Assembly (NCBI RefSeq): GCF_900090315.1
Contig: NZ_FMHZ01000002.1
Span: 5,116,501 to 5,180,500 of the forward strand
DNA length: 64,000 nt
Reading direction: 5' to 3'
DNA from: Micromonospora citrea
GTDB taxonomy: Bacteria > Actinomycetota > Actinomycetes > Mycobacteriales > Micromonosporaceae
Below are positions 7,901 through 16,611 of this stretch, in pieces (position 1 is the stretch's first letter; each line of letters starts with the position of its first letter). The position numbers and the translations under genes were made by a program. The notes under the pieces were generated by a model, which was not told the DNA's origin, ran no database searches, and saw only the letters and a program-made list of their open reading frames with translations.

Positions 7901-8989
7901 TCAGAGCCGGATCGGCATCAGGATCGAGAAGGCGTCGGCGTCGTCGGGGCGGCGCACGGCCAGCGGCGCGATGGGGCCGTCCAACTCCAGCAGCAACTGG
8001 CCCGGGCCGGCGGCGTCGAGGGCCTGGAGCAGGTACCCGCCGTTGACGCCGACCCGGAACGCGTCCTCCTCGCCAGGCAGCTCGTCCGCCCCGAACAGCC
8101 GCACCCCGCCCCTTCCGTCCGGCCCGAGCACCGTCACCGCCAGCGGCGCGCCGTCGTGCCGACGGGTGACGACGGGGGCGTCCGCGCTGGTGAGGGCCGA
8201 GCGCAGGGCGGCGGCGTCGACGGTCAGCCGGTGCGTCGGCGCGTCGTCGGGCGCCGACGGCAGCAGCCGGCGATAGTCCGGGAAGTCGTACGGCAGGGCG
8301 GCGGCGTCGACCGTCCGGCCGGCGACGGAGACCGCGATCGTCCCGCCGGCCACGGTCAGCCGCGCCTCGGGGGTGATCCCCGCGCCCGTGTCGAGCAGGG
8401 CCCGCGCCTCGTCGACGAAGGCGACCGGGGCGAGCACCCGCACCGCCGGTCCGTCGACCCGGCCCGCCGCCCGGCCCAGCGCCATCCGGTGCCGGTCGGT
8501 CGCCACCAGCCGTACGCCGTCGCCGTCGACGTCGAGCAGCACGCCGGTCAGCACCGGCAGGTCGGGGTCGGTGCCGACGGCGAAGCGGACCGCGTCCACG
8601 GCGGCGGCCAGGTCGGCGCGGGACAACACGATGCGGGTGGTCATGGGAAGCTCCTCGGAGTCGACAAGCGTACGGATCCGGGAGAGCTCGCGACGGGCGT
8701 CGGCGAGGCCGTCCTCCAGCCGGCGCAGGTGCGCGTCCAGCAGGCGGTGCACCTCCACCGGCTCCGACCGCAGCGCGGCGGCGATCTCGGCCACGGGCAT
8801 GCCGATCCGGCGCAGCCCCGCCACCAGCCGGGCGGGCGCCACCTGGTCGCCGGTGTACCAGCGGTAGCCGGTGGCCGGGTCGACCAGGGCCGGCGTCAGC
8901 ACCCCGGCCGAGTCGTAGAACCGCAGGGCGCTCACGGTCAGCCCGCTGGCCCGGGCCAGCTCGCCGATGCTGCGCAGGTCGCTCTCCAC
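7901..8989 (-). CDS. MerR-type regulator fused to a DNA polymerase III beta clamp-like domain
   Basis: 362 aa. Residues 1-75 are a MerR winged helix (SIGELARASGLTVSALRFYD, then GYRWYTGDQV), and a coiled-coil dimerisation helix reaches about 110. The rest reads like DnaN: VRLVATDRHRMALG resembles the clamp's middle-domain signature, and the C-terminus ILMPIRL matches the clamp ending (MPMRL). About 250 residues remain, so only two of the three clamp domains would fit. The fusion type is known in actinomycetes from annotation; its ligand and targets are not. The GTG start lies 7 nt after the -10 of a MerR-style promoter, so it is probably autoregulated and leaderless. Confidence 0.85.
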   Translation of the reverse strand: MESDLRSIGELARASGLTVSALRFYDSAGVLTPALVDPATGYRWYTGDQVAPARLVAGLRRIGMPVAEIAAALRSEPVEVHRLLDAHLRRLEDGLADARRELSRIRTLVDSEELPMTTRIVLSRADLAAAVDAVRFAVGTDPDLPVLTGVLLDVDGDGVRLVATDRHRMALGRAAGRVDGPAVRVLAPVAFVDEARALLDTGAGITPEARLTVAGGTIAVSVAGRTVDAAALPYDFPDYRRLLPSAPDDAPTHRLTVDAAALRSALTSADAPVVTRRHDGAPLAVTVLGPDGRGGVRLFGADELPGEEDAFRVGVNGGYLLQALDAAGPGQLLLELDGPIAPLAVRRPDDADAFSILMPIRL

Positions 8990-9046: not shown

Positions 9047-10228
9047 TCAGCGCGGGCCGTCCAGCACCCGGAAGGTCATGCCCGCCCGGACCAGCCGGTC
9101 CAGCAGCGCGTCGCCCATCGCGGTCACCGGGGTCACCTGGCCCGAGGTGGCCGGCAGCTCGTCGGTGGCCAGGCAGAGCGCCGACTCGGCGAGCATCTTC
9201 GCCGTCTCGTCGTAGCCGGGGTCGCCGCCGGCCACCTCGGTGAGCACCCGCCGGCCGCCGCCGGTGCCGACGAACCGGACCCGGAACCACGACTTCGCCC
9301 GCTGTTGCGGCGTCGGCCCCTGCCCGGCGGTGAGCCGGCCGAACAGCCAGCGCCGGGCCGGCGGCACCCGCACCAGGCCGACCAGGCCGCCCAGCCCGGC
9401 CCCGGCGGCCAGCACGGTCGGCAGCCGCTTGACGGCGGCGAAATGCCGGTAGCGGAAGTCGGGGCCGTACTCGGGGCGGGCGGCGGCCGAGCGGCGGACC
9501 ACCTGCGGGTCGATGGTCGGCAACGGCACGGCCCACATGCCCAGCTCCTTCGACCGGGCGAGGCGACCGGGCACCGCGCGGACCCGCCGTCCGGTCGGCC
9601 GCGGCTCGACCCGCCGCCGCTCGCGCGCCGCCCGGGACGTCTCGGCCCGGCGGGAGAGGGCGAGCAGCGCCGAATGGTACGTGCCGGCGGAGAACCGCCC
9701 GCCCGCCCGCACGAAGCCGTCGACCGTGACCGGCCCGTCGGCCGGCAGGTGCCTGAGCGTGAACCAGACGCCCAGGTCGTGCGGGACCGAGTCGAAGCCG
9801 CAGGCGTGCACCAGCCGCGCCCCGGTGCGCACCGCCTCGGCGTGGTGGCGCACGTACATCAGGTCGACGAACTCCGGTTCGCCGGTGATGTCCAGGTAGT
9901 CGGTGCCGGCGCGGGCGCACGCGGCGACCAGCGGCTCGCCGTGGTGGACGTACGGGCCGACGGTGGTGGCCACCACCCGCGCGCTCTGCGCGACCGCCCG
10001 CAGCGAAGCGGGGTCGGTGACGTCGGCGGTGAGCAGGGGCAGCCCGGCCAGCGCCGGGTCGACCGCGGCCAGCCGGTCCCGGACGGCGGCCAGCCTGTCG
10101 GGGTTGCGCCCGGCGAGGGCCCAGCGCAGCCCGGGCGGGGCGGTGCGGGCCAGGTATTCGGCGGTCAGCCCACCGGTGAACCCGGTGGCCCCGAACAGGA
10201 CGATGTCGTACGCCCGCTGCTCACGCAT
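9047..10228 (-). CDS. Saccharopine dehydrogenase-family NAD(P)-binding enzyme
   Basis: 393 aa. The N-terminus has a Rossmann motif, IVLFGATGFTGGLTAEYL, followed by a conserved catalytic-region pattern (VVATTVGPY, YLDITGEPEFVD). This is the saccharopine dehydrogenase / trans-acting enoyl reductase-like group that also contains mycobacterial lipid enoyl reductases. No substrate can be assigned. A hydrophobic stretch near residues 255-275 (VLAAGAGLGGLVGLV) may be a membrane contact. It is transcribed toward the MerR-clamp gene. ATG 10228 gives the complete Rossmann fold. Confidence 0.82.
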   Translation of the reverse strand: MREQRAYDIVLFGATGFTGGLTAEYLARTAPPGLRWALAGRNPDRLAAVRDRLAAVDPALAGLPLLTADVTDPASLRAVAQSARVVATTVGPYVHHGEPLVAACARAGTDYLDITGEPEFVDLMYVRHHAEAVRTGARLVHACGFDSVPHDLGVWFTLRHLPADGPVTVDGFVRAGGRFSAGTYHSALLALSRRAETSRAARERRRVEPRPTGRRVRAVPGRLARSKELGMWAVPLPTIDPQVVRRSAAARPEYGPDFRYRHFAAVKRLPTVLAAGAGLGGLVGLVRVPPARRWLFGRLTAGQGPTPQQRAKSWFRVRFVGTGGGRRVLTEVAGGDPGYDETAKMLAESALCLATDELPATSGQVTPVTAMGDALLDRLVRAGMTFRVLDGPR

Positions 10229-10300: not shown

Positions 10301-10333
10301 CGTCCTCACCCCGGGGCGTCGGGGGTGAGGACG
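10301..10333. terminator. Hairpin overlapping the stop of the alcohol dehydrogenase gene
   Basis: Perfect 12-bp stem (10301-10312 with 10322-10333) and 9-nt loop. One arm contains the TGA of the dehydrogenase gene. Position and stability suit a terminator embedded in the 3' end of the coding sequence. Confidence 0.6.
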
Positions 10334-11475
10334 ACGCGGACGCAGCCGTCGGCGCGGTCCCGGAACAGCGCGTACCCCTCGGCGCCCCGGTCCAGCGGCA
10401 GCCGGTGGGTGGCCAGGTGCTCGGTGCGCAGCTCGTCGCGGGCCATCCGCTCCAGCAGCATCGGGATGTAGCGCTGCCCGTGCTGCCGCGCGCCCCGCAC
10501 GGTGAGCCCCTTGTTGGTCACCGTACCGAGCGGGAACGCGTCCACGACCCCGGTGAACTCCCCGAGCAGGAAGACCGAGCCGCCCTTGCGGCAGGCGTGC
10601 ACCGCCTCGCGGACGGCGGCCGGCCGTTCCGCGCCGCCGGTGAGCCGGTCCGCCAGCGACCGAGGGCCGGACCCGTCCCAGGCCGCCCCGACCGCCTCCA
10701 CGCAGACGTCCGGCCCCCGCCCGCCGGTGCGCTCGCGCAGCTCGGTGGGGACGTCGGCGAGTCGGTGGTCGATCGTCTCCGCCCCCGCGTACCGCTGCGC
10801 CATCCGCAGCCGGTCGTCCTCGGCGTCGACGACGATGACCCGCTCCGCGCCGAGCAGCCGGGCCGCCCGTGCGGTGAGCTGACCGACCGCGCCCGCGCCC
10901 CAGACCGCCACCACGTCGCCGGGGCGCACCCCGCCGAGGTCCGCGCCCATCCAACCGGCCGGTGCGGCGTCCGAGGCGAACAGGGCCCGGTCGTCGCTGA
11001 CCGGCTCCGGCACGGTGAACGCGCCCACGTCCGCGTACGGCACGCGGACGTACTCGGCGTGGCTGCCGGCGAAGCCGCCCATCGCCCGGGGCTGGCCGAA
11101 CGCCCCGCCCGTCGGGTGGCCCCAGACCGCCTCGGCGAGCGCCGGGTCAGCGCTGCCGTTGTCGCAGCAGGAGGGCAGCTCCCGCCGGCAGTACCAGCAG
11201 GAACCGCAGGAGACCGAGGAGCAGACCACCACCCGGTCGCCGACCCGGTGCCGGCGCACCTCCGGGCCGACCTCGACCACCTCGCCGAGGAACTCGTGCC
11301 CGAGCACGTCGCCGACGGCCAGGAACGGCACCCGCCCGGCGAGCAGCGGCAGGTCGCCGCCGCAGGTGGCGCTCTGCCGGACCCGGACGATCACGTCGTG
11401 GCCGTTGCGCAGCTCCGGGTCGGGCACCTCGCGTACCGCCAGCTCGCCGGCGCCCGCCCAGCACAGCGCCCTCAT
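10306..11475 (-). CDS. Zinc-dependent alcohol dehydrogenase (MDR family)
   Basis: 389 aa. Catalytic zinc ligands are suggested by ATCGGD and GHEFLGEVVEVG. The structural zinc loop appears as VSCGSCWYCRRELPSCC, with four or more cysteines. The NAD-binding motif is VWGAGAVGQLTAR, followed by VVDAEDDR, typical of NAD preference. It resembles the glutathione-independent formaldehyde / threonine dehydrogenase branch. The ATG overlaps the TGA of the frameshifted upstream gene (ATGA), so both belong to one transcript that starts near the palindrome at 12013. Substrate unknown. Confidence 0.88.
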   Translation of the reverse strand: MRALCWAGAGELAVREVPDPELRNGHDVIVRVRQSATCGGDLPLLAGRVPFLAVGDVLGHEFLGEVVEVGPEVRRHRVGDRVVVCSSVSCGSCWYCRRELPSCCDNGSADPALAEAVWGHPTGGAFGQPRAMGGFAGSHAEYVRVPYADVGAFTVPEPVSDDRALFASDAAPAGWMGADLGGVRPGDVVAVWGAGAVGQLTARAARLLGAERVIVVDAEDDRLRMAQRYAGAETIDHRLADVPTELRERTGGRGPDVCVEAVGAAWDGSGPRSLADRLTGGAERPAAVREAVHACRKGGSVFLLGEFTGVVDAFPLGTVTNKGLTVRGARQHGQRYIPMLLERMARDELRTEHLATHRLPLDRGAEGYALFRDRADGCVRVVLTPDAPG

Positions 11476-11904
11476 CGCGGCGGGTCGACCGGCCGGTCGA
11501 CGGCGGAGCGGTCGGCGCGCAGCACCTCGCCGGTCTCGGCGAGCTGCTTGGCCTCCCGCAGCGCCCGGCGGATCAGCAGCCCCGGATCGTCGCCGACGAG
11601 GTGGGCGGCGAGCCCGGCGGGGGTCGCGCCGGGCAGCGGCCGGGCGGCCAGCTCGGTGCCCCGGCACCCGGGCGCCGGGCGCAGCTCCACCTGCACCGCG
11701 CCGCCGAGCCGGCGCAGCGGCTCCGGCCAGCACCTCGCCGGGCGCGCGGTCGACGGTCACCACCTGCCAGCGCGCGGGCCGCGGGTCGGCACCGGCCGCA
11801 CGGGGCCGGGCCGCCCGGCGTACGGCCAACGCCCGCACCGCCGCCGCCCCGGCCGCCGCGCCGAGGGCGAGCCCGGCCCCGGCCGTCCCCACGATCCGTC
11901 CCAC
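11472..11904 (-). pseudogene. Frameshifted small conserved gene upstream of the dehydrogenase
   Basis: A GTG at 11904 with a good GGAGG opens VGRIVGTAGAGLALGAAAG (membrane-like), continuing to WQVVTVDRAPGEVLA. About position 11725 the meaningful frame switches to PEPLRRLGGAVQVELRPAPG, then GTELAARPLPG, and runs to a stop at 11472. Joined, the two halves look like one protein of about 140 aa with an N-terminal hydrophobic segment and a SRPBCC/cyclase-like body. The break is either a real mutation or a sequencing indel in GC-rich DNA. The 3' part still overlaps the dehydrogenase start. Confidence 0.6.
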
Positions 11905-12012
11905 CGGTCCCTCCGTCCCCGTGCGCGCACCGCCGTCCTCCGTTCCGCGCGGCGCCGGAGCGCGCCGTCGCGCGCGGCCGGTCGCCCACGTGCCACCAGG
12001 GTCGCCGGGGCC

Positions 12013-12043
12013 GGGGTGAAGCCGGCTCCCCCCGAAGGGGTGA
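12013..12043. promoter_or_regulatory. Shared palindrome, site A (divergent region)
   Basis: GGGGTGA (12013-12019), 7 bp, then TCCCCCC (12027-12033), one mismatch from the palindrome GGGGTGA-N7-TCACCCC seen at 15745 and 16553. An extra GGGGTGA half-site lies at 12037-12043. It sits between the divergent LAL regulator gene (81 nt from its ATG) and the dehydrogenase operon (108 nt from its GTG). Confidence 0.55.
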
Positions 12044-12114
12044 ACCGGCCCCGGCCGGGTAACCGCCCGCCGCAGGGCCTGGGGGAGTGGACGCGTCCGT
12101 GGGGGTGGGGCCGG

Positions 12115-15033
12115 ATGCCGGAGCAGGTACGGAACACCGGGGTCGTCGCGGTCACGGGCGGTCCGCTGCTGGCGTCCCGGCTGGCCCCGGCCGCGCCGCC
12201 GGAGCCGCTGGTGCTGCGGCCCCGGCTGCTGCGGGCGTTGGACGCGGGGACGGCCGGCCCGGTCACCCTGGTCCGCGCCCCGGCGGGCTGGGGCAAGACG
12301 ACGCTGCTCGCCTCCTGGTTCCGGGCGGCCGGCGAGGCCGGCGCGCACCGGGGCCGGGTGGGGGAGGGACCGGTGACCGCCGCGGCCGAGGGCGCCCGGG
12401 ACGCCGGCGCGGCCGGCGCGAGCCCGGGCGACTTCGGCGCGGCGGACGGGCCGGCGGACCGCGCCCGGCCCCAGGCGGCCTGGGTGTCGGTGGAGAGCGG
12501 CGACGACGGGGACCGGCTCTGGTCCTACCTGGCCGCGGCGCTGCGCGCGGCCACCGAACCCGCAGCCGACGCCCCGGGCCCGCCCGTGCCCGGCGGGTCA
12601 CCCCGACCCGACCAGCTGGAGGTGCTGGCCGCGGCCCTCGCCGCGCGGGAGCGGCCGGTCCTGCTCGTCCTGGACGACCTGCACCGGATCACCGACCCGG
12701 CGGCGCTGACCGGGCTGGACTTCCTGCTGCGCCACGCCGAGCAGCGGCTGCGGTTGGTGGCCGGCGCGCGTGGCGGGCTGCCGCTGGCCGTGCACCGGCT
12801 GCGGCTGGCCGGCGAGCTGACCGAGATCGGCCCCGACGAGCTGGCCTTCACCGGCGACGAGGTCGCCGACCTGCTGGCCGCGCACGGGGTGACGCTGCCG
12901 GCGGCCGGGGTGCGCCGGCTCCGGGAGCGTACGGGCGGCTGGCCGGCGGCCCTCCGGCTCGCGGCGCTGGCGCTGCGGGGCCAGCCCGACCCGGCCCGCT
13001 GGGCCGAGCAGTTCGGCGGCGACCAGCCGGACGTCGCCGGCTACCTGCGCGAGGAGGTGCTCGCCGGGCTGGACCCGGAGTCCCGGGACGTGCTGCGCCG
13101 CTCCGCCGTCGCCGACGCCGTCTGCGCCGGGCTGGTCGACGCGCTCACCGGGCGCGCCGACGGCGAGCAGGCGCTGGCCGGCCTGGCGGGCGACGGCGGG
13201 CTGCTCCGCCGCGACGAGGGCCGCCCGCCCTGGTACCGCTGCCAACCGCTGCTGGCCGAGCTGCTCCGCGCCGAGCTGGGCCGGCTGCCCGCCGACGAGC
13301 TGCGCGACCTGCACCTGCGGGCGGCCGGCTGGTACGCCGGGAACGGGCGCCCCGCCGACGGCCTGCGGCACGCGCTGGCCGGCGGGGACTGGGACCGGGC
13401 CACCGAACTCTTCGTCGCCCACTGGCCGGAGCTGGTCCCGTACGACCGGGACGAGCCTGGAGGGCCGGCGCCCGCGTCCCCGCCGGCCGAGGCCGTGCGA
13501 CGCGACCCGGAGCTCGCGCTCGCCTGCGCGGCCGAGCGGGCCCGGGCCGGGGACGCCGGCGCGGCCGCCGGTCACGTGGACAGCGCCGTGGCCGCCGCCC
13601 GGTCGCTGCCGGCGCCGCGACGCGACCGGTTCCGGCGGCTGGCCGCCGCGCTGGAGGTCACGCTGGCCCGGCTGGCCGGCGACCCGGCGGCGGTACGCGC
13701 CGCCGCCGGCCGGCTGCTCGCCGCCCGTCCCGCCCTCGGCCTGACCCCGCGACAGCCGCCCGGTGCCGCCGTGACGGGCCCGGCGGGGCCCGGGGCCGCG
13801 GCCGGGCTGCTCGCCTCCGGTCCCGCCGCGACGGCCGAGCCGCGCGGGGACGCCGCCGAGGACGCCGACGTGCGGGCGGTGGCCGGCGCCGCGCTCGGGC
13901 TGGCCGACCTGGCCGACGGCGACCTGCCCGCCGCCGGGCTCGCCTTCACGCGGGCGCTCGCGGCGGCCCGGGACGTCGGGCGTACGCGTACGGAGCTGGT
14001 CTGCGCCAGCCGGGCGGCGCTCCTGCACGCCGTGCGGGGCGAGCTGCGGGCCGCCGAGACGCTGGCCCGGGACGCCCTGGCGCTGCCGCCCTGCCGGGGC
14101 TGGTCGTGCCGGGAGGACTGCGCGCACGCGTACCTGGCGCTGGCCCTGGTCGCCCTGCACCGGGACCAGCCCGAGGAGGCGGAGGCGCACCTGGCCCTGG
14201 CCGGTCCGGCCACCGGCGAGCCGACCGTGGCGGCGACGGCGGCGCTGTGCCGGGCGTACCTGCTGCGGGACGCCGGCGACCTGGCCGGCGGGCACCGGGC
14301 GCTGGCCGAGGCGCGGGAACGGCTGGCCGACCGGCCCCGGGCCACGGAGCTGGCGTCCTGGCTGCTGGCCGCCGAGGCGGACCTGCGCGGGGCGCGGGGC
14401 GACCTGGACAGCGCTCGGCGCCTGCTCGCCGACCGGGTACGCGACACCGCCGCTCCGCCGCTCGCGATCGCGCTCGCCCGGGTGGAGCTGCGCGCCGGCG
14501 ACGCCCGAGCCGCCGGGTACGCGCTGCCCGACTGGGACGCGCCGGAGGCGGCCGACTGGCCGCTGCCGGCACGCCTGGACGCGGCCGTGCTGGACGCGGT
14601 CCTGGCGCGGCGGGCGGGCGACGAGCGGCGGGCCGGTCGGGTGCTGGAGCGGGCCCTGGACCTGGCCGGGCCGGAGGGGTTCCGGCGGGTTTTCACCCGC
14701 GCCGAGCCCGGGGTCCGGGAGCTGCTCGCCGCCCACCTCGACGCGGGCACCGCGCACTGGCCGACGGTCAGCGACCTGGTCCGGGGCGCCGACGCGCCGG
14801 CCGAGGCGAACCCGGCGGACCGGGGCGCGGCGGGGCTCGACGAGCCGCTGACCGAGCGGGAGCTGACCATCCTGCGCTACCTGCAGAGCATCCTGTCCAA
14901 CGTGGAGATCGCCGCCGAGCTGTCGCTGTCGGTCAACACGGTCAAGACCCACGTCCGCAACATCTACCGCAAGCTGGACGCCACCCGCCGCCGCGAGGCC
15001 GTCAGCCGCGCCCGCGAGCTGCGGCTGATCTGA
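12115..15033 (+). CDS. LAL-family LuxR regulator (MalT-like ATPase)
   Basis: 972-aa cytoplasmic transcription factor. Walker A is PAGWGKTTL (about residues 56-64) and Walker B is VLLVLDDLHRI; both belong to a STAND-type NTPase. A long TPR-like helical region rich in Ala/Leu/Arg follows. The C-terminal ~65 residues are a LuxR/NarL helix-turn-helix (LTERELTILRYL, then IAAELSLSVNTVKTHVRNIY). The N-terminal ATPase is interrupted by a low-complexity Gly/Ala stretch (about residues 75-120). A palindrome found also before the DsbA-like and BON genes lies 81 nt upstream, so these may be its targets. The RBS is weak; the ATG was chosen because it precedes the conserved LLASRL region. Confidence 0.9.
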   Translation: MPEQVRNTGVVAVTGGPLLASRLAPAAPPEPLVLRPRLLRALDAGTAGPVTLVRAPAGWGKTTLLASWFRAAGEAGAHRGRVGEGPVTAAAEGARDAGAAGASPGDFGAADGPADRARPQAAWVSVESGDDGDRLWSYLAAALRAATEPAADAPGPPVPGGSPRPDQLEVLAAALAARERPVLLVLDDLHRITDPAALTGLDFLLRHAEQRLRLVAGARGGLPLAVHRLRLAGELTEIGPDELAFTGDEVADLLAAHGVTLPAAGVRRLRERTGGWPAALRLAALALRGQPDPARWAEQFGGDQPDVAGYLREEVLAGLDPESRDVLRRSAVADAVCAGLVDALTGRADGEQALAGLAGDGGLLRRDEGRPPWYRCQPLLAELLRAELGRLPADELRDLHLRAAGWYAGNGRPADGLRHALAGGDWDRATELFVAHWPELVPYDRDEPGGPAPASPPAEAVRRDPELALACAAERARAGDAGAAAGHVDSAVAAARSLPAPRRDRFRRLAAALEVTLARLAGDPAAVRAAAGRLLAARPALGLTPRQPPGAAVTGPAGPGAAAGLLASGPAATAEPRGDAAEDADVRAVAGAALGLADLADGDLPAAGLAFTRALAAARDVGRTRTELVCASRAALLHAVRGELRAAETLARDALALPPCRGWSCREDCAHAYLALALVALHRDQPEEAEAHLALAGPATGEPTVAATAALCRAYLLRDAGDLAGGHRALAEARERLADRPRATELASWLLAAEADLRGARGDLDSARRLLADRVRDTAAPPLAIALARVELRAGDARAAGYALPDWDAPEAADWPLPARLDAAVLDAVLARRAGDERRAGRVLERALDLAGPEGFRRVFTRAEPGVRELLAAHLDAGTAHWPTVSDLVRGADAPAEANPADRGAAGLDEPLTERELTILRYLQSILSNVEIAAELSLSVNTVKTHVRNIYRKLDATRRREAVSRARELRLI

Positions 15034-15147
15034 GCCCGCCGCCGGGCAACCGTTCCGGGCGTGGGCCGCCGGTGAGGCGGAGGCCGAGGCCGAGCTCGGC
15101 GAGGCGGACGACGAGAAGGACGAGGCCGCGGCACGCGGGGCCGGCGC

Positions 15148-15696
15148 TCAGGCAGTGGCGGCGGCGTCGACCGCGGCCAGGAGGTCGGCCAGGTCGTAGC
15201 CGACGTCGTGGCGGATCCCGTTGACGAACAGGGTGGGGGTGGCGTCGACGCCGCTGCGGATGCCGCCGACGAAGTCCCGCCGCACCCGGTCGCCGTGCGC
15301 CTGCCGTTCCACCTCCGCGGCGACCTCCTCGGCGGGCAGCCCGAGCTGCGTGACGCCGAGCGACAGGTGTACCGGGTCGAGCTGGTCCTGGTGCTCGTAG
15401 AGCCAGTCATGCATCGCCCAGAACCGGCCCCGCCGCCCGGCCGCCTCGCTCGCCTCGGCGGCGTGCTCGGCGTACGGGTGCATGTTGACGATGGGGAAGT
15501 GCCGGTACGCCAGCCGGACCGTGTCGGCCCGTTGCCGCAGCACCTCCTGCAGGTTCCGGTACGCGGCACCGCAGAACCGGCACTGGAAGTCGCCGTACTC
15601 GACGATCGTCACCGGCGCGTCCAGGGGCCCGCGGACGTGGTCGTCCTCGGTCACCGGGGTCCGCAGGCGGGCGGTGACCTGCAGTGGCGTCGTCAT
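15148..15696 (-). CDS. DsbA-family thioredoxin-fold protein (cytoplasmic)
   Basis: 182 aa with no signal peptide. The thioredoxin-fold N-terminus is TIVEYGDFQCRFC, giving redox centre Cys39-x-x-Cys42, followed by the alpha-helical insertion typical of DsbA. The cis-Pro motif appears as DATPTLFVNG. It is very similar in style to the DsbA-like domain found fused to NhaA antiporters in actinomycetes, but it stands alone here. Probably a thiol-disulfide or detoxifying oxidoreductase. Site B of the shared palindrome lies 48 nt upstream of the ATG. It converges on the LAL regulator gene. Confidence 0.88.
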   Translation of the reverse strand: MTTPLQVTARLRTPVTEDDHVRGPLDAPVTIVEYGDFQCRFCGAAYRNLQEVLRQRADTVRLAYRHFPIVNMHPYAEHAAEASEAAGRRGRFWAMHDWLYEHQDQLDPVHLSLGVTQLGLPAEEVAAEVERQAHGDRVRRDFVGGIRSGVDATPTLFVNGIRHDVGYDLADLLAAVDAAATA

Positions 15697-15744
15697 CCGG
15701 TCGGCCCCTTCGGCTCAGTCATGTCTCCCAGGCTGCCCCGGGCC

Positions 15745-15765
15745 GGGGTGAGGGCGGCTCACCCC
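15745..15765. promoter_or_regulatory. Shared palindrome, site B (DsbA-like gene)
   Basis: Perfect 21-bp inverted repeat: GGGGTGA (15745-15751), N7, TCACCCC (15759-15765). It lies in the leader of the minus-strand DsbA-like gene, matching sites A and C in both sequence and spacing. Confidence 0.7.
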
Positions 15766-15797
15766 GCCCGGGTGGTCCGGCGACGCGGGCGGGCGCC

Positions 15798-16484
15798 TCA
15801 GCCGAGCACCGGGGCGACCGCGATGTGGTTCTGCACCTCGCGGATGCCCGGCGCGTTCCAGGCGGTGCGTTCGACCTCCGCCCGCTCCGGCATCGAGTGG
15901 ACCAGCCCGCCGAGCACCACCGTGTCGCCGTGCACCCGGACGGTGATCCGCTCCGCCTCGGTGGCCCGGTTGCGGGCGAGCGCGTCGACGATCCGCTCGG
16001 CCAGGGCGTGCCCGTCGGGCCGGACGTCGGGGCGGACGGTGATGCCGTTGCTGACCCCGCGTACGCCGGTGAGCCGGGCAACGGACCGCTCGGCGGCGTG
16101 GCGCTGGTACTCCCAGTCGACCTCGCCGTGCAGCGTCACCCAGCCGTGCGAGACGGTCACGTCGAGCCCTTCCAGGGGGACGAACGCGTCCCACTCCAGG
16201 GCGTGTCCGGCGGCGGCGGCGATGTCCGGGTCGGCGCGTTCGGCGCCGGTGCCGAGGCGTACGGCCAGGTCGTTGGCGACCGCCCGGACGCGGGCGACCC
16301 GGTGCGCGGCCCGCTCGGCGGCCCACTTCTTGGCGTAGCTGTCGACCCGGCCGGTGAGCGTGACCACGCCCTCGGAGACGGTCACGCCGATCTCGTTCGG
16401 CCGTACCCGGGGCTCCCAGGTCAGCTCGTCGAGCACGGCGGACTGGATGTCCTGGTCGGTACGGCTGATCGTCGCGATGGCCAT
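15798..16484 (-). CDS. Triple BON-domain protein
   Basis: 228 aa, soluble, acidic. Three BON repeats can be read, each with a G-V-V-T/V-L-x-G-x-V core: ITVSEGVVTLTGRVDSYAKK-like near residue 35, VSHGWVTLHGEVDWEYQRH near 105, and VHGDTVVLGGLVHSMPERA near 185. BON domains bind membranes or hydrophobic ligands and are common in stress-induced proteins. ATG 16484 has GGAGGG upstream. Site C of the shared palindrome is 68 nt before the ATG, arguing for common control with the DsbA-like protein and the LAL regulator. Confidence 0.88.
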   Translation of the reverse strand: MAIATISRTDQDIQSAVLDELTWEPRVRPNEIGVTVSEGVVTLTGRVDSYAKKWAAERAAHRVARVRAVANDLAVRLGTGAERADPDIAAAAGHALEWDAFVPLEGLDVTVSHGWVTLHGEVDWEYQRHAAERSVARLTGVRGVSNGITVRPDVRPDGHALAERIVDALARNRATEAERITVRVHGDTVVLGGLVHSMPERAEVERTAWNAPGIREVQNHIAVAPVLG

Positions 16485-16552
16485 CTGTCCCTCCTCACGG
16501 GATGGCTGCCCGGGCGGACGCGGGCCCGCCCGGACCGATGCTGGCCCGGGCG

Positions 16553-16573
16553 CGGGTGACCTTTCCTCACCCG
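16553..16573. promoter_or_regulatory. Shared palindrome, site C (BON gene)
   Basis: Perfect inverted repeat CGGGTGA (16553-16559), N7, TCACCCG (16567-16573). Same core and spacer as sites A and B. Confidence 0.7.
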
Positions 16574-16597
16574 GACCGGACGAAACCACAGGCGCGA

Positions 16598-16611
16598 TGG
16601 GAGCGCTTCCA
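16598..16611. promoter_or_regulatory. CebR-like operator
   Basis: TGGGAGCGCTTCCA differs at one base from TGGGAGCGCTCCCA, the cello-oligosaccharide repressor box known for Streptomyces CebR and Thermobifida CelR. It precedes a GH74-CBM2 glucanase gene, the expected kind of target, and overlaps the predicted -35. cebR itself is not in this window. Confidence 0.85.

Follow-up and report, generated by a model that had tools for sequence, protein, structure and literature searches.

The regulator locus and its three boxes

The window analysed here is a stretch of 64,000 nucleotides from the genome of Micromonospora citrea (GCF_900090315.1, contig NZ_FMHZ01000002.1, positions 5,116,501 to 5,180,500), and our subject is a regulator gene on its plus strand (12115..15033) together with three copies of a short palindromic box that lie around it. 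The protein encoded at 12115-15033 (972 amino acids) has the architecture of the LAL/MalT family, LAL standing for large ATP-binding regulator of the LuxR family. The P-loop, GWGKTT, could be read directly from residue 58 onwards, and three Pfam domains scored above their curated cut-offs: AAA_16 (38.3 bits, cut-off 32.6), the MalT-like tetratricopeptide repeat domain TPR_MalT (PF17874; 56.9 bits, cut-off 45) and, at the C-terminus, the LuxR/GerE helix-turn-helix (HTH) domain (PF00196; 57.8 bits, cut-off 23.5; residues 911-965). The Pfam search of the protein returned no receiver domain. The DNA-binding GerE domain (14845..15009, plus strand) is nearly invariant across the genus loci that were compared, while the remainder of the protein diverges. 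A search of the PDB sequences with the C-terminus recovered only general LuxR-type HTH relatives, and the closest relatives among named records were those of other Micromonospora species. This protein, hereafter the LAL, is the putative activator of the system described below.

The genes of interest on either side of the LAL gene are encoded on the minus strand: a zinc alcohol dehydrogenase-like protein (ADH; 10306..11475) within an operon, a DsbA-like protein (Thioredoxin_4/DSBA; 182 amino acids; 15148..15696) and a protein with three BON domains (228 amino acids; 15798..16484). A first-pass annotation of the sequence had pointed out a 21-bp palindrome, GGGGTGA-N7-TCACCCC, at 12013, 15745 and 16553, and all three copies were recovered at those positions. 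The copy at 12013 reads GGGGTGA-N7-TCCCCCC and thus deviates at one position, and another GGGGTGA half-site is located at 12037-12043; the arms of the copy at 15745 are perfectly complementary across the 21 bp; and the copy at 16553 has a C/G outer pair and is symmetric, all as had been described.

The box occurs throughout the genus with a single spacing

The genome-wide scan that the annotation had proposed yielded five exact sites of GGGTGA-N7-TCACCC in the 7.2-Mb source genome, compared to none for a reversed-pattern control; when one mismatch was allowed, the numbers were 19 and 8. Summed over 61 genomes of the genus, 298 exact boxes were found versus 9 control sites, and every one of the 61 genomes contained at least one box. 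With up to two mismatches the window itself held 10 matches; 100 dinucleotide shuffles of it held 4.38 on average, and one of them reached 10. All spacings k from 0 to 30 of the pattern GGGTGA-Nk-TCACCC were counted in the window and 20 DsbA-anchored loci: k = 7 occurred 34 times and any other k at most once, the expected count per spacing being 0.28. At orthologous promoters the spacers vary between constant half-sites.

The box was also conserved upstream of orthologues. A DsbA match was present in 120 of 121 genomes, and at the best 30 of these loci at least one exact box was found in all 30 cases and a second site (at most one mismatch) in 28. The random scatter over coding and non-coding DNA that would be expected of a meaningless motif was not seen, as 160 out of 162 distinct exact-box contexts lay outside called genes; in a smaller box-selected set, which came mostly from outside the genus, the boxes inside called genes numbered 4 of 12 from genomes with the LAL and 5 of 21 from genomes without it. 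The repeated box is a genuine shared regulon box and not a product of chance, as the annotation had argued from the common spacing: the exact counts in the 61 genomes and the enrichment of N7 alone leave this part of its claim standing.

The box is part of an oriented promoter element

A simple gene finder was applied to the surroundings of the exact boxes, both in the window and in the collected loci, excluding those loci that had been fetched by means of the box from outside the genus (L142-L170 and L241-L250). Of the 162 contexts, 2 fell within genes and 48 between genes that diverge, 8 had no start nearby and the remaining 104 had a one-sided target. After removal of duplicates, 103 unique one-sided promoters were aligned in the direction of the target gene, and these shared the layout YCACCC-N5-GGGTGA-N7-TCACCC-N10-NANNNT, in which the last element represents the -10. 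The A and T of the -10 were both present in 93 of the 103 promoters when read towards the gene and in none when read in the opposite direction; likewise, a distal half-site with at least five of six letters was found in 91 promoters in the direction of the gene versus a single one in the other. The commonest -10 sequences were CAGGCT, CAGGGT and CAGCAT. The existence of a canonical -35 element underneath the box was also considered and ruled out, since the match to TTGACA at 16-19 bp from the -10 did not exceed three of six letters in 92 of the 93 promoters having a -10. For 29 of the 93 a leaderless message is predicted, as their start codon coincides with the predicted transcription start. 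Two sets of loci each yielded 30 direct half-site repeats at N18. Relative to the transcription start site (TSS) predicted from the -10 assignment, 7 nt past the NANNNT element, the middle half-site would end around 36 nt upstream and the half-site array would span about -52 to -23.

The functional unit is therefore a directional array, in which three half-sites keep a constant distance to a -10 and no -35 is present. The palindrome that the annotation had taken as the unit turned out to be the inner part of that array in the 103 promoters, for which reason the stand-alone 21-bp box was abandoned. A -10 that is present, a -35 that is absent and an array at a fixed distance are the features of an activator-dependent promoter of the MalT type.

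A 48-position operator model (position weight matrix, PWM) was built from the aligned promoter sites and run over the window. Three strong sites were recovered, all on the minus strand (48.9, 37.7 and 32.7), and two weak matches (12.6 and 10.3) that represent two of the same boxes read in the opposite direction; none of 40 Markov-1 resampled windows contained a site scoring 10 or more. Operator A with its -10 (11996..12043, minus strand; PWM 32.7) serves the ADH operon and consists of TCACCC (12043-12038), the N5 spacer CTTCG, a degenerate GGGGGA (12032-12027), the N7 spacer GCCGGCT, TCACCC (12019-12014), N10 and the -10 GACCCT (12003-11998). The distal TCACCC of operator A corresponds to the extra half-site that had been noticed near 12013, and a box that deviates at no more than one position is found between the ADH and LAL genes in 17 of 20 relatives within the genus. 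Operator B (15728..15775, minus strand; PWM 48.9) serves the DsbA gene and reads CCACCC (15775-15770), N5, GGGTGA (15764-15759), N7, TCACCC (15751-15746), N10 and the -10 CAGCCT (15735-15730). Operator C (16536..16583, minus strand; PWM 37.7) serves the triple-BON gene and combines a weak distal half-site, TCGTCC (16583-16578), with the box (16572-16554) and the -10 CAGCAT (16543-16538). The boxes had been placed upstream of the DsbA gene, the triple-BON gene, the ADH operon and the LAL gene; the first three assignments were retained and the last was not. The box at 12013 was rejected as the promoter of the LAL gene itself, as the full operator at that position reads leftward into the ADH operon.

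The 14 one-mismatch sites elsewhere in the source genome (one of which is the site at 12013) were also considered as regulon members. Ten of them were scored (L006-L015) and none exceeded 14.7, so that most look like chance occurrences; one (L008) does have a distal half-site, with a low score and no downstream gene within its stretch.

Genes behind the operator

All five exact sites of the source genome front genes, with operator scores from 32 to 49. The targets encode DsbA, the BON protein, a second triple-BON protein, a member of a 104-amino-acid family without Pfam match and a DUF2267 protein, the gene of which starts some 270 nt downstream of its site. The 104-amino-acid target diverges from a DUF2267/pterin-dehydratase-like gene, and the operator read in reverse at that position scores 17.4. 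Further targets that recurred within the genus were an AhpC-like peroxiredoxin, encoded upstream of DsbA and represented by 21 site-linked proteins, and an SCP2-like protein, represented by 15. Rare ones were a glycosyltransferase-like protein (two loci; the name was given from its sequence) and, at one locus, a GH15 protein of which the N-terminal domain is trehalase-like. A GH88 gene and a second zinc ADH gene were discarded as targets because they are situated on the upstream side of the SCP2 operator. The gene order of the cluster was syntenic in most of 20 genus loci and read: serS, a MerR/beta-clamp-like gene, a saccharopine-dehydrogenase-like gene, ADH, a small open reading frame (ORF), operator, LAL, DsbA with or without peroxiredoxin, operator, BON, operator; the LAL was present in all 20. 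Separately, an exact box was observed between the genes for EF-G and EF-Tu in three genus loci (L070, L087 and L107, from genomes G037, G021 and G019, respectively).

Outside the core genus the neighbours of the LAL gene change and the operators remain. In 35 LAL loci we recovered 74 sites (score of at least 18 and a gene within about 320 nt), leading to 69 distinct target proteins. These included HSP20 (L209-L211, L220, L227, L228), DnaK (L206, L215, L218-L220, L223), a thioredoxin-2-like protein and a DUF1931 protein (L210), YflT (L332) and SDR proteins (L213, L226), next to DsbA, peroxiredoxin and BON proteins; the Pfam tally gave 13 BON, 7 DUF7144, 6 HSP70, 6 AhpC-TSA, 6 HSP20, 4 formylglycine-generating-enzyme-like, 4 DSBA and 3 LAL-type proteins, followed by smaller counts. 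In two genomes of genus g18 the operator is followed by dnaK-grpE-dnaJ-clpB (L219, 11745-18044; L220, 11978-18267). In genus g44 and in Dactylosporangium (L221, L233, L345, L346), genes for LALs, formylglycine-generating-enzyme-like proteins and others form clusters in which operators front many genes, some of them LAL genes.

We read the target set as a regulon for proteostasis and redox stress with some members of other kinds, the stress role being suggested by the nature of the gene products. The annotation had proposed a redox and envelope stress regulon; the shared regulon and its redox component stand, and since chaperones, proteins with a thioredoxin fold and stress proteins are found among the family-wide targets, proteostasis fits better than the envelope.

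Association of the operator with the LAL

We searched 150 genomes of the family for the exact box and for the C-terminal 240 residues of the LAL, which was counted as present at E ≤ 1e-50. Among the 66 genomes with the LAL, 59 contained the box and 50 at least two (mean 3.3), compared to 21 and 2, respectively, of the 84 genomes without it (mean 0.29); the genus means of the box count differed with LAL presence (Mann-Whitney p 8e-7). Genera of mixed composition gave the following counts: in g18 the LAL carriers had 1 and 2 boxes and the four of six sampled species without LAL had 1, 0, 0 and 0; in g23 the carrier had 2 and the others 0 and 0; and in g24 the carriers had 3 and 2 and the other 1. 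In 12 listed LAL genomes outside the genus, 18 of 42 exact boxes lay within 10 kb of the LAL gene (0.13 expected); 14 of these 18 belong to genus g44, and outside g44 the fraction was 4 of 10.

Among the best 80 LAL loci, 77 had an operator scoring at least 16, also where DsbA, BON or ADH neighbours were lacking, it being understood that most of these 80 are from Micromonospora, which was also the source on which the PWM was trained. At LAL loci labelled neither Micromonospora, Salinispora nor Verrucosispora, it was found in 14 of 17. Conversely, a score of at least 20 was reached by none of 21 boxes (19 distinct) from family genomes without LAL, by 7 of 12 from LAL genomes and by 1 of 10 from outside the family. 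In a class-wide search the exact box was present in 75 of 296 genomes, 3 of which belong to the genus itself. Outside the genus this sample contained only weak relatives of the LAL (at most 132 bits, in 7 genomes) and we therefore regard the system as restricted to the family; a metagenome-assembled genome (MAG) labelled Streptosporangiaceae (L333; PWM 17.5) may be the one exception. Five exact boxes with similar spacers were noticed within 30 kb in a genome of another family of the same order (G322, contig C4, 39096-68740) that has no close LAL, and these perhaps represent a repeat or the sites of another regulator.

The annotation had suggested that the HTH domain of the LAL could bind the box. 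Judged by co-occurrence and by the operators linked to its gene, the LAL is indeed the best candidate regulator of the operator; that it binds is a prediction from these sequence comparisons.

Alternative explanations

Could the box be recognised by something other than the LAL? The response regulator BldM, a developmental LuxR-type protein, or a heterodimer of it deserves attention because its Group I site in Streptomyces venezuelae, TCACcCgnncGgGTGA, contains the same half-sites with the same facing as the distal pair described here, as far as the published account of that site goes (PMC4125116). The half-sites of BldM, however, are four nucleotides apart and those of the operator five and seven, and TCACCC-N4-GGGTGA was absent from the window and 20 genus loci, where the N5 form occurred five times. 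Moreover, TCACCCGNNCGGGTGA was absent from the source genome and was spread over the family irrespective of whether the LAL was present (mean 0.79 in the 66 genomes with it and 1.13 in the 84 without, p 0.12), whereas the N7 box tracks the LAL; on this account BldM is a very unlikely binder. Another regulator of the conserved cluster might be responsible instead, such as the protein encoded at 7901-8989 (minus strand), which combines a MerR HTH with a domain resembling the beta clamp of DNA polymerase III and the gene of which is near the LAL gene in 19 of 20 genus loci. An inverted repeat of the form 6-N7-6 is a layout that MerR-type regulators use too. Against this, the gene is missing from its place in one locus (L128) of which the genome (G043) keeps three exact boxes, many LAL loci outside the genus have operators and no such gene within the stretch read (e.g. 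L204, L206, L209-L211, L219, L220), and an array of three half-sites with an N5 arm resembles the geometry of MalT and not that of a MerR dimer, all of which makes this explanation highly improbable.

The LAL might also bind and repress, in which case the array would block RNA polymerase until the signal releases it, and its position from about -52 to -23 would be compatible with such a role. However, 93 of the 103 promoters have the array at one and the same distance from the -10 and a -35 is lacking, as is typical of activator-dependent promoters, and the geometrically similar MalT of Actinoplanes was found to be an activator by deletion and overexpression (PMC7567727); we regard repression as unlikely. 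The formation of palindromes by chance in such GC-rich DNA, to which the two-mismatch background of the shuffled windows gives some substance, is refuted by the excess of exact sites, the N7-specific enrichment and the variable spacers between fixed half-sites, and its probability is negligible.

Related regulatory systems

The switch closely resembles, and yet differs from, the one reported for MalT (ACSP50_3915) of Actinoplanes sp. SE50/110, judging by the sequences of both. As published, that MalT-like LAL of the same family acts at an oriented pair, TCATCC-N5-GGATGA, that overlaps the -35 region and of which the 3' end lies 34.4 +/- 1.0 nt upstream of the TSS (PMC7567727), to which the roughly 36 nt before the predicted start in our promoters would be similar; in both cases the regulator is situated among its targets (here predicted). 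The half-site differs (GGATGA there, GGGTGA here), two half-sites were reported there and a third at N7 is present here, and the region described for Actinoplanes comprises 51 genes, with amino-acid and transport genes among them, and responds to maltose (PMC7567727), in contrast to the dispersed stress regulon proposed here. TCATCC/GGATGA pairs, in either order and at spacings 0-30, had no exact occurrence in the window plus 20 genus loci. One locus of genus g29 (L237) has two adjacent LAL genes together with three TCATCC-N5-GGATGA (4155, 14635, 15194) and two TCACCC-N5-GGGTGA pairs, none of them followed by a third half-site, and resembles the MalT region of Actinoplanes. MalT of Escherichia coli shares the P-loop ATPase, the MalT TPR and the LuxR HTH, as well as repeated hexamers that overlap the -35 region; its box core is given as GGA[TG]GA (cited in PMC9628970 and PMC7567727), so that GGGTGA is one base from GGATGA, and the differences are the array TCACCC-N5-GGGTGA-N7-TCACCC and the identified targets, among which no maltose genes were seen.

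Three further systems are worth comparing. HspR is a MerR-type repressor that controls dnaK-type chaperone operons in actinobacteria through HAIR, an inverted repeat with an N7 spacer; the repeat and the dnaK operons are alike, the half-site differs and the likely regulator here is the LAL. BldM Group I shares a LuxR-type HTH and TCACCC/GGGTGA half-sites with our system, and as described it is a response regulator with developmental targets that uses a two-half-site N4 palindrome (PMC4125116), unlike the LAL with its N5 and N7 spacings. IniR of mycobacteria is, like the LAL, a MalT-like signal transduction ATPase with numerous domains (STAND) and a LuxR-type HTH, and it activates a stress operon with trehalose as the reported signal; the account of it reports control of iniBAC only, unlike what we propose for the LAL, and we found no operator described for it (PMC5760070).

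The annotation had stated that no regulon with this box was known. Our searches of the open-access literature turned up neither the exact operator nor a LAL-controlled chaperone regulon, and within them the statement holds for the exact box; near relatives have nonetheless been published (PMC7567727, PMC4125116).

Proposed function of the LAL and its operator

We consider it likely that the three boxes act as operators within a single regulon that is activated by the LAL in a stress response. The sequence itself shows the operator with its conservation and constant geometry, the genes behind it and its co-occurrence with the LAL, and from these we infer binding, activation and the stress role. 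Because GGGTGA is close to the MalT core and the N5 geometry is that of the Actinoplanes MalT pair, at a promoter position predicted to be similar, we propose activation by a LAL oligomer on three half-sites. The LAL, a MalT-type STAND ATPase with a C-terminal LuxR HTH, would oligomerise on sensing its signal and set its HTH domains on the three half-sites of YCACCC-N5-GGGTGA-N7-TCACCC; it would then recruit RNA polymerase to a promoter with a -10 element 10 bp downstream and no -35, the array standing in for the -35 contact. In Micromonospora this would turn on the triple-BON, peroxiredoxin/DsbA, DUF2267 and SCP2-like proteins and the zinc-ADH operon, to which HSP20, DnaK and thioredoxin would be added in other members of the family.

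Various observations weigh against this interpretation. On the side of the promoters, 10 of the 103 are without a -10, and 89 of the 103 are from one genus and hence not independent data points; nor are the related genomes of the family comparison. The PWM scan of the window found no operator pointing at the LAL gene. The targets outside the core genus are not all stress genes, as 7 of the 69 are DUF7144, 4 formylglycine-generating-enzyme-like and 3 LAL-type proteins. The association with the LAL is likewise imperfect: the three of 80 LAL loci without operator are from two MAGs of the family and from Pseudonocardia; 5 of the 12 boxes from LAL genomes also lack the full operator, and 4 of the 12 are inside called genes; an exact box is missing from 7 of the 66 LAL genomes (e.g. 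G121, G161 and several of genus g34); G126 and G233 have 3 and 2 boxes, respectively, and no close LAL; and an exact box without a close LAL occurs in 72 of 293 class-sample genomes outside the genus, with up to 6 boxes in each. Three drafts of the genus itself (G004, G010, G023; 370-990 contigs) contain 3-5 exact boxes and no LAL match, which possibly reflects gaps in these fragmented assemblies. Finally, the LALs of g44 are divergent (around 180 bits) and multiple, and when they are omitted the mean box counts become 3.17 (59 genomes with a LAL) and 0.62 (91 genomes without).

A more far-reaching scenario is quite possible, and we offer it tentatively. The MalT-type ATPase could be the master activator of a proteostasis and redox response throughout the Micromonosporaceae (HSP20, DnaK-GrpE-DnaJ-ClpB, thioredoxin, peroxiredoxin, DsbA, BON, DUF2267), acting through a three-half-site operator that replaces the -35, in a manner reminiscent of a heat-shock response and separate from HspR, HrcA and the stress sigma factors; the damage signal might be a sugar (trehalose or maltodextrin) or the redox state. 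The connection of the proposed regulon with chaperones and thiol enzymes points to a route of stress control of which we found no description in the open-access literature. LAL proteins are common in actinobacteria, and according to PMC9628970 few have a defined operator and many of those studied belong to antibiotic clusters. One LAL clade now gains a precise predicted operator, a target list and a family-wide distribution, which makes binding, activation and signal directly testable in strains that are non-pathogenic and can be cultured, and GGATGA of the Actinoplanes MalT versus GGGTGA provides a natural specificity pair for the choice of DNA by the LAL HTH.

Further features of the locus

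The ADH cluster extends, in the same direction, to a gene for a saccharopine-dehydrogenase-like NADP-binding protein (9047..10228, minus strand). The first gene of the ADH operon in relatives is a small conserved ORF, located by tblastn at 11475..11763 (minus strand). It is frame-disrupted here, with two frames that overlap at 11728-11756, and open in the relatives that were compared; no Pfam match was obtained for two intact relatives. As a consequence of the disruption, the intact ADH start is some 540 nt from the 12013 box. Behind operator B, at the predicted position of a leaderless start, lies a nine-codon mini-ORF, MTEPKGPTG (15693..15722, minus strand), the stop of which overlaps the DsbA start. 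Its product resembles the N-terminus (MSDPNGL...) of the peroxiredoxin that is present at this position in many relatives, and it looks like a remnant of the peroxiredoxin gene that is sited between operator and DsbA in those relatives. A palindrome-like element, TGGGAGCGCTTCCA, was observed at 16598-16611 of the window, upstream of a divergent BNR/CBM2 glycosidase gene, and in several relatives as well; it resembles a cellulose operator of the CebR/LacI type.

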